From assembly GCA_902768975.1 (NCBI GenBank), contig CACXMZ010000004.1, positions 62,001 to 126,000 of the forward strand: DNA of 64,000 nt, in the 5' to 3' direction. Shown here piece by piece: positions 52,936 through 58,562 of the stretch (position 1 is the first letter of the stretch; the number at the start of each line of letters is the position of its first letter). Under the pieces are notes generated by a model that was not told where the DNA came from, made no database searches, and saw only the letters and a program-made list of their open reading frames with translations. Source of the DNA: an uncultured Coriobacteriaceae bacterium. GTDB taxonomy: Bacteria; Actinomycetota; Coriobacteriia; Coriobacteriales; Eggerthellaceae. The translations under genes and the position numbers were made by a program.

Positions 52936-53030
52936 AATGTCCTCCAATTCACCCTTTTAGGAATACGCTACAGCGCAGTAGTGTGATAGCAATGCAGCAT
53001 TATACGCGAGATTAGCCCCTAGATTGCTGA

Positions 53031-53306
53031 CATCTTGCCGGCACCGAGGGCAAGACATCCATTGCGGTCAACGCAGAAGGCCAGGACTTAAGCGGCTACA
53101 AGCGGGTCCTCTTCCCGGCCACTGTGGCTTCCGTCACGACGCCGCCTGCAGGGAAGAGCCTTCCCTGCACTGGCAAGCCCCAGGAGCTGGCGGTGGCGGG
53201 CGTAGCCAGCGGCGCCGTGCCATACGCGGCTCCCATAGCCACAACTCTCGTGGCCCTTGCCGCTGCGGCACTCGCGCTCGCGGTCCGCAAGCGCACGCGC
53301 GACTAG
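53031..53306 (+). pseudogene. C-terminal remnant of an LPxTG surface protein
   Basis: An open frame with no proper start runs from after a TGA at 53028 to a TAG at 53304-53306. It encodes TSIAVNAEGQDLSGYKRVLF, then a sorting signal: LPCTG at about residue 51, a hydrophobic stretch (TTLVALAAAALALAV) and the basic tail RKRTRD. This is the classic C-terminus of a sortase-anchored protein, with the N-terminal part missing. The bases upstream to 52936 hold no recognisable gene. Confidence 0.7.
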
Positions 53307-53325
53307 GCGAAAGACCGCAGGCTAT

Positions 53326-53571
53326 GTGCGGCTCGCAACGCGGCCGAGGTCGTATCGGCAGGCACGTGCGGCGTTATGCGCAGAGGTATGCCGTAAGCTG
53401 GTCGATTTGCCCGTCGGTCATGCCTGCAGGACAGTAACCGAGGTGTACGACCTGATCAAAAGCGAAGGATTCGAACTTACTGACAAAGAGCTCAGGGGGA
53501 TTTCGGGTGGATGGAGTGACATTTGCGCCAGTTTGTGCTGGGATCACAGCTGCAAGGAGTTTTTAAGGTAA
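53326..53571 (+). CDS. Candidate ribosomal-peptide (RiPP) precursor with Nif11-like leader
   Basis: About 81 aa if started at the GTG at 53326; the start is uncertain. The C-terminal part reads TVTEVYDLIKSEGFELTDKE, then LRGISGG, which closely resembles the end of Nif11/nitrile-hydratase-type leader peptides with a double-glycine cleavage site. The 19 residues after the Gly-Gly (WSDICASLCWDHSCKEFLR) would be the core, with three cysteines and serines. No modifying enzyme, protease or ABC exporter is in the window. The N-terminal region matches the family poorly, so it may be a broken copy. Confidence 0.45.
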   Translation: MRLATRPRSYRQARAALCAEVCRKLVDLPVGHACRTVTEVYDLIKSEGFELTDKELRGISGGWSDICASLCWDHSCKEFLR

Positions 53572-53579
53572 CACACGTC

Positions 53580-53608
53580 TTGAATACAGCATAGAAGGCC
53601 TGTACAAT
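53580..53608 (+). promoter_or_regulatory. Promoter of the repeat-like region and surface-protein gene
   Basis: TTGAAT (53580-53585), 17-bp spacer, TACAAT (53603-53608). Transcription from here would begin near 53615 and give a 5' leader of about 218 nt before the surface-protein ATG at 53833. The leader contains the asparagine-codon-rich stretch. Confidence 0.6.
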
Positions 53609-53640
53609 GATAGACAAGGACAGGGTTGAAAGGGCTTTAA

Positions 53641-53754
53641 CTGGTGGCTCCGTTCGCCCGGTAACAACAATAACAATGCCGCGAATGTCAATGGTGACGG
53701 TAACGTCAACAACAATGGCAACAAAGTAGACAACAAAAACGGCGTGCGTCCTGC
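53641..53754 (+). repeat. Asn-codon-rich repeat resembling a DGR template repeat
   Basis: A 114-bp stretch that, read in one frame, gives WWLRSPG, then 24 codons of which 13 are AAC/AAT, then KNGVRPA. No start codon begins this frame and a TGA stop lies just upstream (53628-53630), so it is probably not translated as such. Its ends match the coding sequence at 54381-54509. Such AAY-rich copies flanked by conserved ends are the form of template repeats in diversity-generating retroelements. No reverse transcriptase is found nearby. Confidence 0.5.
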
Positions 53755-53832
53755 ATTGCCTTATCCGCCAGAAGCGCAGCTGAAGGTTCGGCTCGCCATG
53801 CTCCCCGTTAGCCACAAACAATCGGAGGACAA

Positions 53833-56800
53833 ATGAAACAACTAAGGAAAAGAAGAGGGCTAGCCATAGTGGTGTCCCTTGCCATGGCAATCACCATGAT
53901 GCCGGTGTTTGTAATGACTGCATACGCTGCAGCAGGCGACCCTGCCATGGTAGAAGGCACAGATGTGCTGCAGAGTACATCCAATACAAAAGATGCCCAG
54001 ACAGTTTACATGGCAGACAAGGCATGGCGTGTGATCGGCTATGGCGGTGAAGGCGTTGCAAGCGCTACAAATACCATGACCCTGCTCTCTGCCGGAATTC
54101 TCAAAACAGATGTCGTCTTCAGAGAATATATCAGAGACGAAGGGTCTGACAGCTGGTACCATCAGAGCATTCTCCAATCAGAGGTGGAGGCGATAGCAAA
54201 TACGTTCTCGGCTGGCGAGAAAGCAGGCATAGCAACAAGGAAACTTAGAGCCGGAGATTATAACGGTTATGACACAGACACGGTATCCAGATACTCAGTT
54301 GATAACGCTCTTCTATGGCCTCTTTCCACAAAGGAGGCACATTATACACTGAACGGGGATATTCGAAACGTCCATGACTTCTGGTGGCTCCGCTCGCCCG
54401 GTTACACATCGCCCCCTTTCTTCACTTGCCACATCTCGTACGTCAAAAGTGATGGCAATGTCGACGAAGAGGGCTGCTTGGTCACTGAGAAAAATGGCGT
54501 GCGTCCCGCTTTTAATTACAAACTGAACTCTGTCATCTTTTCATCTGCCGCGACTGGCGGCAAAGTTTCCGGCACTATAGGTGCCGATTCATTAATGACG
54601 GTTGGCAGTAATGACAGCGGTGAGTGGAAGCTGACACTGTTGGATGATGGCACAATTTACGGATTTAATAGTCATCTTAATGGTCATGAGGGATTTACTG
54701 CATCCCGAGCGGATAGCGGTAATGTCGTAGCCGGTGGAAAAATTAAGATCAAATATAACGGTGGACGGACCGGAACTAATGAGTATGTCTCCGTATTTCT
54801 TAAGGATTCCACGGGTAAGATAGTCTACTACGGACATCTGGCAGAGAATAGTGAATCAGCCACGGGAGCAGCGCTTACCATTCCATCCGACATAGCACTG
54901 GGAACATATACCGTGGGGGTCTTTGCAGAGCAGTGCAACGGAGATAATAAGACAGACTATGGAAGCGCAATATCGACATTTGATATTACTGTTGTTAATC
55001 ACTCTCACGAATTAACCTATTCCGCAGATGGGCCGACCATCACGGCGACTTGCGCCAATACAGACGGCAACTGTCCCTTGACAGATTGTAAGGCTACCCT
55101 GACCATTACAAAGCCATTGCACGATACCTATGGTGACGGCAAAAGCGCAGAAGCGGGAATAACCGACGAAAACAGCATTCAGGGAGATGCAAAGGTCAAA
55201 TATCAGAAAAAGACCGGTGAATCATCTTATGATACAGAAACTGAAACCGCGCCTACAGACGCGAGAACGTACAAGGCTAGTATCACGGTGGGCGATACTA
55301 CCGCATCTGTGGAATACACCATAGCCAAGGCAGATATCACACCGGAGGTCAACATAGAGGACTGGGACTACGGCGATACGCCGAATGATCCTTCTGTGAC
55401 TTCCGCAGGCAACCCGGGAGGCGGTGAAGTCACATACAAGTACTATACAGACGAAGAGTGCGCAAAAGAGACCACTTCCGCCCAGGGCGCATCGGAAGAA
55501 GGTAGTGTGCCTTCATATGGCGGAGATTACTGGGTCAAGGCTACGGTAGAAGAGACCGACAACTACAAGTCCGGCACAGGTATAAAGAAGTTTACGATAA
55601 ATACCGCAGCCATCACGGTCACGGGTCTTAAAGGCGACTCAAAGGTATATGACGGAACGACTTCAGCGACACTCGGTGTATCTGACGCAACTCTTGTTGG
55701 AGTGAAGTCGGGCGACGAAGTGCGAATCGCATCTGCAACAGGCACGTTTAATGATAAGAATATAGGCACAGATAAGACCATAAGCAGCATTACCATAGTG
55801 CTTGAAGGTAAAGACGCCGGCGGATATAAAGCTGCAGTCGATTCGGCAACAGTTACCGGTGCAATCACGGCGAAGGAGGTAAAGGTCAGCGGCATCGCAG
55901 CATCAGACAAGACATACGACGGGAACACAACGGCAATACTCACATTTACCGGAGCATTATTTGATGGGATGATTGATGGTGATGATCTTTCCGTAAAGGG
56001 AAAGGATAGTCAGGACGGAACCTTCGATAATATGAACGTCGGAAGCGGTAAGACCGTCACTCTTCCTGCCCTTGCATTGGACGGAAATGACTCGGCAAAC
56101 TACACGATCAGTGACGACAGCCAGACAGCAGCCAGTGCGGCAATCACTGCGAAGGAGCTTAGTGTAACAGCCGATAATAAGTCCAAGACATACGGCGAGG
56201 ATGACCCGGAGTTTACCTACACCTCAGATGGACTCATAACAGGTGATACATTCACCGGAGCTCTTGAGAGAGCAAAGGGAGATGATGTCGGCACCTACGA
56301 TATCAATCAGGGAACTCTGAGTGCAGGAGATAACTACACAATTAAATATACAAAAGGAACGTTCACCATAAATAAGGCGGCGACCAACAGCGTAACAGCT
56401 TCAATCGAAGGCTGGATATACGGAGATGATCCGAATAAACCGAACGCCACCGCTACCCATGGTCAGGAAACAGCCATTTTTACATACAGCGATGCGGCAG
56501 ACGGGACTTATACAGAAACGGTTCCGACGGGTGCTGGTACATGGTATGTAAAGGCGACAGTTTATGAAACAGATAATTATGTCGGTGCAGTAAGCGAGCC
56601 TGTAGAGTTCACAATCGCAAAGAAGGAAGTCGGCCTTGAATGGAGTGATACAGAGCTTACATACAACGGTGAAGATCAGAAGCCAAAAGCGACCGCGACA
56701 GGGCTTGTTGGTCAGGATGAATGCACAGTTACCGTAAGTGGAGAGAAAACTGACAGCAATGCCAAGAGTGGCGAAACAAGCTACACGGCCACTGCTGAAA

Positions 56801-57867
56801 GCTTAAGCAATGACAACTACAAGCTGCCGGATAACACAACAACAGAATTCACTATCGTACCTAAGAAACTGACACAGGCCATGATCAGCCTTAACAGCGA
56901 TACATTCAAGCATGATGGCACAGAGAAGAGCCCTGCTGTTTCAATGACGGATTCGGACATCCTGGAAGATGATGCTCCCAAACAGATGAAAGTTGACGAA
57001 GACTATACCTTGAGCGGAGATTTAAGCTCTTCGGACCTTGGGACTCACTTCATCACGGCAAAGGGAGAGGGCAATTATACCGGATCCATCGACACGAGTT
57101 GGATGATTTACAACAACAAATCCGGCGAAGATAAGGAAGAGGGAACCAGTGGCAAGGGTGATTTTGAAGTATTTGTCGATATAGAAAGCAACACTTCAAC
57201 CTTGACAGTGGACAACTTCAATATCAGCATGGCAAAGGGATTCCTCACGCAAGAGGATATGACTAGATACAATAAAGGCGAGAACATCCTTGTTTATATG
57301 ATCATTAAGGAACAGCTGGAAAGCGAGGTAGAACCGACTGACAGTTCTCTTCTCGGCGGATTGTTCAGAACTGAAGGCGCCATGGACATATCCTGGTACG
57401 ATATCACAGTCTGGAAGAAGATTGGAAGCAGTGCAGCAACGAAGGTGCATGACACGAAAGATGAACTGAGCATGGGCGTTGAGGTTCCGGATAAGTACAA
57501 GGATGCCCCTGAGGGATACACGCGTGAATTCTATCTGGGAAGAGCACACGACGGCATGGCGAGCTTGCTCGCGAATACCTCAGAAGTAAAGGTTGGATTT
57601 AGCTCAGATAAGTTCTCTACATACGCTCTGGCGTACAAGGATACCGAAATCCCTGAGCCAGACAAGGACAAGCCGGACAACCCGGATGATTCTGACGACA
57701 AAGGCAGCAGCAATGGTAATGGCAGCGGTAAAGGAAGCAGCTCCTCAAAGGCCGCCGCGAAGACCGGCGATTCTAACGACATTGCGGGGCTGCTGGCACT
57801 GATGCTAGCATCAGGTGGAGTGCTTGGAGTGATAGGACACAGACGCAGAAGAGAAACGGATAAGTAA
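53833..57867 (+). CDS. Large cell-wall surface protein with DUF6273-like and MBG/YDG repeat domains
   Basis: 1344 aa. Signal peptide residues 1-33; DUF6273-like domain about 35-240 ending WWLRSPG...EKNGVRPAF; an Ig-like part about 240-400; then several repeat domains of YDG/MBG type (for example VYDGTTSATLGVSDATLVG, SKTYGEDDPEFTYTSDGL and ITAKELSVTA) to about 1080; an unclassified domain about 1100-1260; an acidic Asp/Pro/Ser linker; a sorting-like C-terminus AAAKTGDSNDIAG, hydrophobic span and HRRRRETDK. LPxTG is replaced by AAKTG. Codon use (AGA, ATA) and lower GC than the neighbours suggest recent transfer. GGAGG precedes the ATG. Confidence 0.85.
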   Translation: MKQLRKRRGLAIVVSLAMAITMMPVFVMTAYAAAGDPAMVEGTDVLQSTSNTKDAQTVYMADKAWRVIGYGGEGVASATNTMTLLSAGILKTDVVFREYIRDEGSDSWYHQSILQSEVEAIANTFSAGEKAGIATRKLRAGDYNGYDTDTVSRYSVDNALLWPLSTKEAHYTLNGDIRNVHDFWWLRSPGYTSPPFFTCHISYVKSDGNVDEEGCLVTEKNGVRPAFNYKLNSVIFSSAATGGKVSGTIGADSLMTVGSNDSGEWKLTLLDDGTIYGFNSHLNGHEGFTASRADSGNVVAGGKIKIKYNGGRTGTNEYVSVFLKDSTGKIVYYGHLAENSESATGAALTIPSDIALGTYTVGVFAEQCNGDNKTDYGSAISTFDITVVNHSHELTYSADGPTITATCANTDGNCPLTDCKATLTITKPLHDTYGDGKSAEAGITDENSIQGDAKVKYQKKTGESSYDTETETAPTDARTYKASITVGDTTASVEYTIAKADITPEVNIEDWDYGDTPNDPSVTSAGNPGGGEVTYKYYTDEECAKETTSAQGASEEGSVPSYGGDYWVKATVEETDNYKSGTGIKKFTINTAAITVTGLKGDSKVYDGTTSATLGVSDATLVGVKSGDEVRIASATGTFNDKNIGTDKTISSITIVLEGKDAGGYKAAVDSATVTGAITAKEVKVSGIAASDKTYDGNTTAILTFTGALFDGMIDGDDLSVKGKDSQDGTFDNMNVGSGKTVTLPALALDGNDSANYTISDDSQTAASAAITAKELSVTADNKSKTYGEDDPEFTYTSDGLITGDTFTGALERAKGDDVGTYDINQGTLSAGDNYTIKYTKGTFTINKAATNSVTASIEGWIYGDDPNKPNATATHGQETAIFTYSDAADGTYTETVPTGAGTWYVKATVYETDNYVGAVSEPVEFTIAKKEVGLEWSDTELTYNGEDQKPKATATGLVGQDECTVTVSGEKTDSNAKSGETSYTATAESLSNDNYKLPDNTTTEFTIVPKKLTQAMISLNSDTFKHDGTEKSPAVSMTDSDILEDDAPKQMKVDEDYTLSGDLSSSDLGTHFITAKGEGNYTGSIDTSWMIYNNKSGEDKEEGTSGKGDFEVFVDIESNTSTLTVDNFNISMAKGFLTQEDMTRYNKGENILVYMIIKEQLESEVEPTDSSLLGGLFRTEGAMDISWYDITVWKKIGSSAATKVHDTKDELSMGVEVPDKYKDAPEGYTREFYLGRAHDGMASLLANTSEVKVGFSSDKFSTYALAYKDTEIPEPDKDKPDNPDDSDDKGSSNGNGSGKGSSSSKAAAKTGDSNDIAGLLALMLASGGVLGVIGHRRRRETDK

Positions 57868-57953
57868 GAATAAACTTTCTGCTAAAGATTGAAAAAGAAG
57901 GGTCATCAAAAAATAGTTTGGGGTTTCTCTAAAGCAACCTGCCTGGCATGCGC

Positions 57954-58160
57954 CTAGTCGGGCAAGGTGCGTGTGCAGCGCCTGAGGTAGCTCGCACTCA
58001 GTTTTTCCGCCTCGCGCGTAAGCTGATCGAGCGTCGGTTTCATTGCTTCTTCGTAAGAGCTTCCCGACTGGATAGATTCGGCCACCTGCCATGCCGACAA
58101 GAACGCCAGATGGATGCCGCCGCCCATGTCGTTAGCAAGGCCTGCGGCACCGCCGATGAG
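57954..58160 (-). pseudogene. 3' remnant of an FAD-dependent oxidoreductase gene
   Basis: On the minus strand an open segment ending in TAG encodes LIGGAAGLANDMGGGIHLAF, then LSAWQVAESIQSGSSYEEAM and a final ...RRCTRTLPD. This resembles the C-terminus of FixC/geranylgeranyl-reductase-type flavoproteins, whose motif is GDAAG (here GGAAG). The 5' part is absent and the frame is lost upstream at about 58160. Confidence 0.6.
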
Positions 58161-58495
58161 ACTTCAGTTGCAAAACAGCGTCTTCCAGGTTTCGCCTGTT
58201 GGAGAGCTGTGTTGTGTAATTCTGTAGCGCAACGTTGTATTCTGCTCCCTGTTGGCTTGAGTAGCCCTATTGCGCCGCGGCTTTCAAGTGCAGCTTGATT
58301 TGTGGCAAGCGTTGCACCTGCGACGACTTTCTGTGCATTAATATCAAGAAGAGATTTATTATCTGCAGTGCCCACATCATTTTTAGAGCCAGACGTGACC
58401 TTTTCGACGCTACCATGTCGTTTTTTCAGTTCTGAGAGTTCTTTTTCGATATCGGGAGAGCGTAAAAAATGGGTAGTATCCACTGCTTTTATCAC
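58161..58495 (-). other. Possible coding remnant, unidentified
   Basis: On the minus strand an open stretch from a GTG at 58495 (AAGG just upstream) reads with protein-like composition, including PDIEKELSELKKRHGSVEKV. It then runs out of frame into the flavoprotein remnant and stops at 58040. No family is recognised. It could be a short hypothetical protein or a fragment. Confidence 0.25.
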
Positions 58496-58562
58496 TAACC
58501 TTAATAGGCAATAAATGGCGCACTGGAAATATGTATGCTTTCTGTATGCCAACAGGTCTTTC

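Follow-up and report, generated by a model that had tools for sequence, protein, structure and literature searches.

A probable template-repeat relic, lacking its reverse transcriptase, of a DUF6273-type diversity-generating retroelement in an uncultured Coriobacteriaceae bacterium

We describe an element at 53617-53796 of a 64,000-nucleotide stretch of DNA from an uncultured Coriobacteriaceae bacterium, a gut-type actinobacterium (the whole of this stretch, which was analysed throughout, is referred to as the window). We interpret it as the truncated relic of a template repeat (TR) from a Clostridia-type diversity-generating retroelement (DGR) with a DUF6273 target, now without its reverse transcriptase (RT), and we put the probability of this reading at about 0.85. 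The remnant would comprise a 5′ box, a complete TR and the first part of a spacer RNA (Table 1). Diversification is impossible from the genes that are seen in this genome.

Table 1. Coordinates of the TR-like element and its surroundings in the window
Feature	Position	Strand	Remarks
Accessory islet holding the TR	52946-58558		About 110 bp instead in congener G004
5′ box AGGACAGGGTTGA	53617-53629	+	Counterpart of the conserved GGGATTTGGTTGA just upstream of the TRs of related DGRs, near the avd 3′ end
TR core	53642-53757	+	Reads WWLRSPGNNNNNAANVNGDGNVNNNGNKVDNKNGVRPAL; 66-84% nucleotide identity to 29 RT-adjacent TRs
IMH*-like TR 3′ end AACGGCGTGCGTCCTGCATT	53738-53757	+	From alignment with 29 TRs; putative role by analogy to the BPP-1 DGR (PMC12875486)
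Spacer helix P1, 5′ arm ATTGCCTTAT	53755-53764	+	3′ partner missing
Spacer hairpin P2	53774-53796	+	Sequence of its own; 8/9 model pairs form; folding agrees; top window match of model R1
Inferred breakpoint zone	53797-53832	+	Without P1 3′ arm, AAAGG or P3; holds the next gene's leader and ribosome-binding site
Large surface-protein gene	53833-57867	+	DUF6273, YDG and MBG_2 (Pfam); signal peptide by eye
DUF6273 C-terminal stretch corresponding to a variable repeat	54381-54516	+	15 nt longer than the TR

Template repeat or broken target gene

Thirteen of the 24 codons that follow WWLRSPG in the TR reading are AAC or AAT (AAY), exactly as a first-pass annotation of this DNA had counted for 53641-53754, and no unrelated 24-codon stretch of the window exceeds 7, whichever frame is read. 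That annotation had also called such a density hard to explain in a GC-rich genome; the density is real, but the genome is no more than moderately GC-rich (50-60% in this region). Read in the same frame from 53630, the sequence gives KGFNWWLRSPGNNNNNAANVNGDGNVNNNGNKVDNKNGVRPALPYPPEAQLKVRLAMLPVSHKQSEDK, and the TR reading matches the C-terminal part of DUF6273 (Pfam, E 3e-7). The frame stays open for 68 codons (53630-53833), with a TGA codon at either end, and because it holds no plausible start codon the stretch is not an intact gene, in agreement with what had been noted earlier.

We wrote the TR core as a degenerate DNA pattern, TGG TGG L R S P G N xxx N A A N V N, and scanned 84,980 species genomes with it. 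Outside the window the pattern occurs at 29 loci, in Clostridia and Coriobacteriales, in both MAGs and isolates. An RT with DGR motifs (GLPLGNxxSQWF...YMDD) lies downstream of the TR on the same strand at 24 of these loci, and at the other five the RT was recovered with a profile built from those enzymes (E 3e-38 or better). Since an RT stands directly downstream in 29/29 motif loci, all 29 are DGR template repeats. Variable repeats (VRs) are present at 20 of the 29, and in them 402 of 678 template adenines differ, versus 54 of 1616 other bases; the DGRs of these 20 loci behave like the known kind. One complete case from the same taxonomic order, L029/L058, runs from a DUF6273 target through one further gene and Avd to the TR and the RT; its Avd matches NF033474 with an E of 1.5e-12, which is under that model's curated cut-off.

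A further observation from these loci concerns AAY content: coding DUF6273 tails contain 0-4 AAY per 24 codons (50 distinct tails, from all loci at hand), whereas TR-like non-coding copies contain 9-16, a range that includes the 13 of the window. Two of the non-coding copies are low-AAY outliers, one of them a chance frame and the other a short piece of a target. These data bear on a caveat attached to the first-pass annotation, namely that the stretch might simply have come from a duplicated DUF6273 target gene, as its broken end, and have changed by ordinary substitutions. Such an origin could explain why the protein motif (WWLRSPG...GVRPA) is the same, why a DUF6273 gene adjoins, and why other gene pieces lie directly upstream of the TR. 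It is, however, already contradicted by an AAY content far beyond the coding-tail range, by a TGA codon located three codons 5′ of NWW with no DUF6273 domain in frame upstream, and by a 5′ box and a 3′ hairpin that are both TR-type (see below), so that we regard it as highly improbable. Judged from sequence, the identification of the window copy as a TR, which the first-pass annotation had proposed, is well supported by its AAY content, its TR-type flanks and its 29/29 RT-linked relatives.

Flanking elements and the spacer RNA

Scored with a PWM built from 26 loci, the 5′ box of the window reaches 8.0 bits at -25 from TGGTGG, where 0.006 matches are expected for the 33 positions searched. Its spacing falls within the range seen in relatives, and it is weaker than most of their intact boxes.

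On the 3′ side, the spacer RNA of the relatives consists of three helices. The outer one, P1, begins immediately downstream of the IMH-like end; P2 is an inner hairpin; and P3 follows the motif AAAGG. In a model alignment of 16 sequences AAAGG is invariant, both sides have changed in 15 of 21 pairs, and 91% of cells are paired; the shuffles reach 79% and the slid controls 39-53%. We note that this covarying P1-P2-AAAGG-P3 RNA is conserved between TR and RT in the DUF6273-type DGRs (L057-L085, 3′ of each TR), and that no Rfam family corresponds to it at the three DUF6273-type loci searched.

The window contains a truncated copy of this structure, in which P2 still forms (Table 1), 0/7 pairs of P1 form, and AAAGG is absent. 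The P1 5′ arm is near-identical to that of L057 (ATTGCCTTGAT), whose partner reads ATAAGGCAA. Bearing in mind that the P1 partner, AAAGG and P3 are all gone, homology to the spacer ends at about 53796, and it is there that the next gene's leader starts.

The covariance model made from the 16 sequences (R1) finds its best window match, considering both strands, at 53744-53825 (16.9 bits, E 0.05, which is weak), and a spacer profile HMM returns the correct place and strand as its fourth-ranked match in the window, a result that alone is not significant. Some VR ends score like the window under the spacer model. We therefore rejected the spacer covariance score alone as proof of a TR, since it does not separate TR ends from VR ends, and our argument uses P2 and the AAY content instead; the evidence in the 3′ flank is mainly the P2 hairpin together with the arm common with L057. 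The spacer RNA of DUF6273-type DGRs is useful for finding templates without the RT.

Searches for the reverse transcriptase, avd and other copies

The genome (G000) comprises 1.89 Mb in 10 contigs and is 96% complete and not closed. No RT was found in it with RVT_1, and a profile of 20 RTs from DUF6273-type DGRs gave no match there or in five congeners; the same profile does detect DGRs of the family, with RTs in 18 of 140 genomes. A residual chance remains that an RT lies on a piece missing from this 96%-complete assembly. For avd, NF033474 matched nothing in 140 family genomes, in a search for which no positive control rang, and the window gave no match to a profile built on 16 related Avds. 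Searches for remnants of RT and Avd in the window gave noise-level scores only, which bears out the earlier statement that neither gene is present within it.

Nor was a second TR copy found in the genome, or a cognate VR differing at template adenines. Apart from the TR itself, the sole notable matches lie in the downstream gene, where two short anchors of 26 nt and 23 nt are 92% and 87% identical. Both of the genome-wide checks that the first-pass annotation had suggested, for a DGR RT and for further copies of 53641-53754, thus came back empty apart from these anchors. A TR-like 3′ match at locus L040 of the same genome was rejected as coincidental, being antisense to a DUF6273 gene. The genome also contains three more DUF6273 domains in two genes (G000:C5:279907-281259 and 355731-356198; L032, L036 and L040), with no detectable DNA similarity to the TR.

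Across the order, the TR motif occurs in 4 of 399 genomes, three with an RT (L078, L083 and L058) and the window alone without one. The window element was found in none of the 139 other family genomes searched. Furthermore, the family DGRs that we examined (L086-L107) carry other TR types such as NWWERSPN and NWWLRSVMGG, so that within this family the window TR looks foreign. No match to the window TR was found in phage, plasmid and viral collections, and in the viral collection the DGR RTs compared were at most 48% identical.

The first-pass annotation had offered two possibilities for the TR, action in trans or a relic. We favour a relic, given that no RT was detected in the genome or in five congeners, the spacer is truncated and no cognate VR is found; action in trans is unlikely. 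Decay of the TR core is slight, in that only NK and VD stand in place of NN and VN, and such a near-intact core could mean either recent loss or continued use. Continued use might take the form of a live TR that is served in trans by a DGR RT residing on a plasmid, in a prophage or in other strains: the TR of L075 is 84% identical to the window core, and DGR RTs of other types are present in the 18 family genomes mentioned above. Yet no RT was detected in the genome itself or in the congeners searched, the genome contains no target that agrees with the TR at non-adenine positions, and the DGRs of the family have a different TR type. The window spacer also lacks the AAAGG region and P1, and in the best-studied DGR, that of BPP-1, the TR-RT spacer takes on a folded structure, recruits RT-Avd and primes cDNA synthesis at an adenine inside it (PMC12875486). 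Because the window is without most of the spacer, an RT acting on it in trans would, by analogy to BPP-1, the spacer of which differs in sequence, probably fail. We consider a live TR of this kind quite unlikely. A free-standing, RT-less TR that is kept as a passive donor, to be used in trans upon entry of a DGR-bearing mobile element, appears very unlikely too; if it did exist, RT-less genomes could still diversify their surface proteins, and RT-based DGR surveys would overlook such templates.

Relation to the adjoining surface-protein gene

Over the last 24 codons, the downstream gene differs from the TR at 13 of 44 non-adenine positions and at 13 of 28 adenines. Foreign VRs, when compared with the window TR, show non-adenine mismatches at 10-13 of 44 positions (10/44 for L077, 11/44 for L065). 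With a non-adenine mismatch as high as that of foreign targets, the downstream DUF6273 gene is, on this alignment, not the current partner of the TR, and in the same comparison it shows no sign of a past partnership. A special case of the relic would be that the two do form a cognate pair, the VR having drifted after RT loss. The TR and the DUF6273 gene adjoin, and the gene order TR-RT-target is known in L066, L070 and L078; from an ancestor of that order, deletion of the RT would put the TR beside its target gene. A mismatch of 13/44 that is not below the values for foreign VRs, together with the 15-nt difference in length, makes such a pairing unlikely.

Two further claims of the first-pass annotation concern this boundary: that the TR occupies the leader of the surface-protein gene, and that it lies downstream of a good promoter. 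The former is true as a statement of position, but a regulatory role finds no support. As to the latter, a TTGAAT-17-TACAAT site is indeed present upstream of the TR, but its 9/12 match to the consensus is at chance level (one site, versus 0.8 such sites expected from shuffles of the region), and we rejected it as evidence. We also observed that the stop codon of the TR frame shares bases with the ATG that starts the surface-protein gene (ATGA, 53833-53836), which is probably a coincidence. That overlap and the promoter-like site might suggest co-option of the TR for regulation of the surface-protein gene, either as a leader RNA or as a leader peptide. On the other hand, the promoter score is that of chance, there is no start codon with a ribosome-binding site for a peptide, and the element was found in none of the other family genomes, so we attach almost no likelihood to this idea.

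Genomic setting and proposed history

The interval between the AGCS symporter gene and rpsB, which holds the TR, is 5.6 kb longer than its counterpart in congener G004, with aligned flanks at 52945 and 58559; in congener G003 this slot is occupied by an unrelated surface-protein gene. The slot is variable across the genus, being occupied by the 5.6-kb islet, by about 110 bp (G004) or by another surface-protein gene (G003) (L119, L120). Upstream of the TR, the islet contains gene debris at 53024-53306 and 53422-53571: a C-terminal fragment of the LPXTG type, and another that is Nif11-like by eye. A small gene in G001 (L022) is 81% identical to the latter.

As the simplest history, we hypothesize that a DGR of the DUF6273-target type, which is otherwise seen here in Clostridia and a few Coriobacteriales, arrived in the islet of the symporter-rpsB interval. 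In its intact state the TR would have been transcribed, and the RT (with Avd), starting within the spacer and making errors at adenines, would have copied that RNA into a cDNA, which would have replaced the matching tail of a DUF6273 gene. The cassette would later have been cut in the spacer just past P2, by a deletion that extended from the spacer through the RT; avd would have been lost too, and the surface-protein gene would now start at the cut. It should be emphasized that we infer the order of these events, the horizontal arrival and the former presence of avd.

Comparison with known systems

The relic reading implies that the reduction of a DGR can go as far as the template alone, and surveys that are keyed to the RT are blind to such cases. 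Further templates can be found with a simple DNA motif test, given that 29/29 of its matches here are RT-linked templates.

DUF6273 is a known DGR target domain, with targets in Faecalibacterium phages (PMC11792537). The window TR has in common with the DUF6273-target DGRs (L058/L029, L057 and L075) the TR motif, the 5′ box, the IMH-like end and the P2 hairpin, and both are of the DUF6273 C-terminal variable repeat type. Those DGRs differ from it in having an RT 0.2-0.4 kb downstream, avd usually upstream and a complete P1-AAAGG-P3 spacer, none of which the window has, and in most of them there is a matching VR, which the window also lacks. In the DGR of Bordetella phage BPP-1 the TR is followed by IMH* and a structured spacer, as in the window type (PMC12875486), but that DGR is complete and active, and its spacer sequence and its target (Mtd) differ from those of the window.

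Partial loss of a DGR cassette is itself known. Anabaena sp. 90 has a degraded DGR with the RT only, and the cyanobacterial paralogue all3226 shows remnant TR-VR homology without an RT (PMC7517822); in isolates of Treponema denticola, targets are present without RT or TR (PMC4891356). We found no description of a template-only DGR relic in the DGR literature that we surveyed. Whereas the cyanobacterial and Treponema denticola relics retain the RT or the target, the window retains only the template and part of the spacer; having lost part of its cassette as they have, the element belongs with these known DGR relics and is not a new kind.
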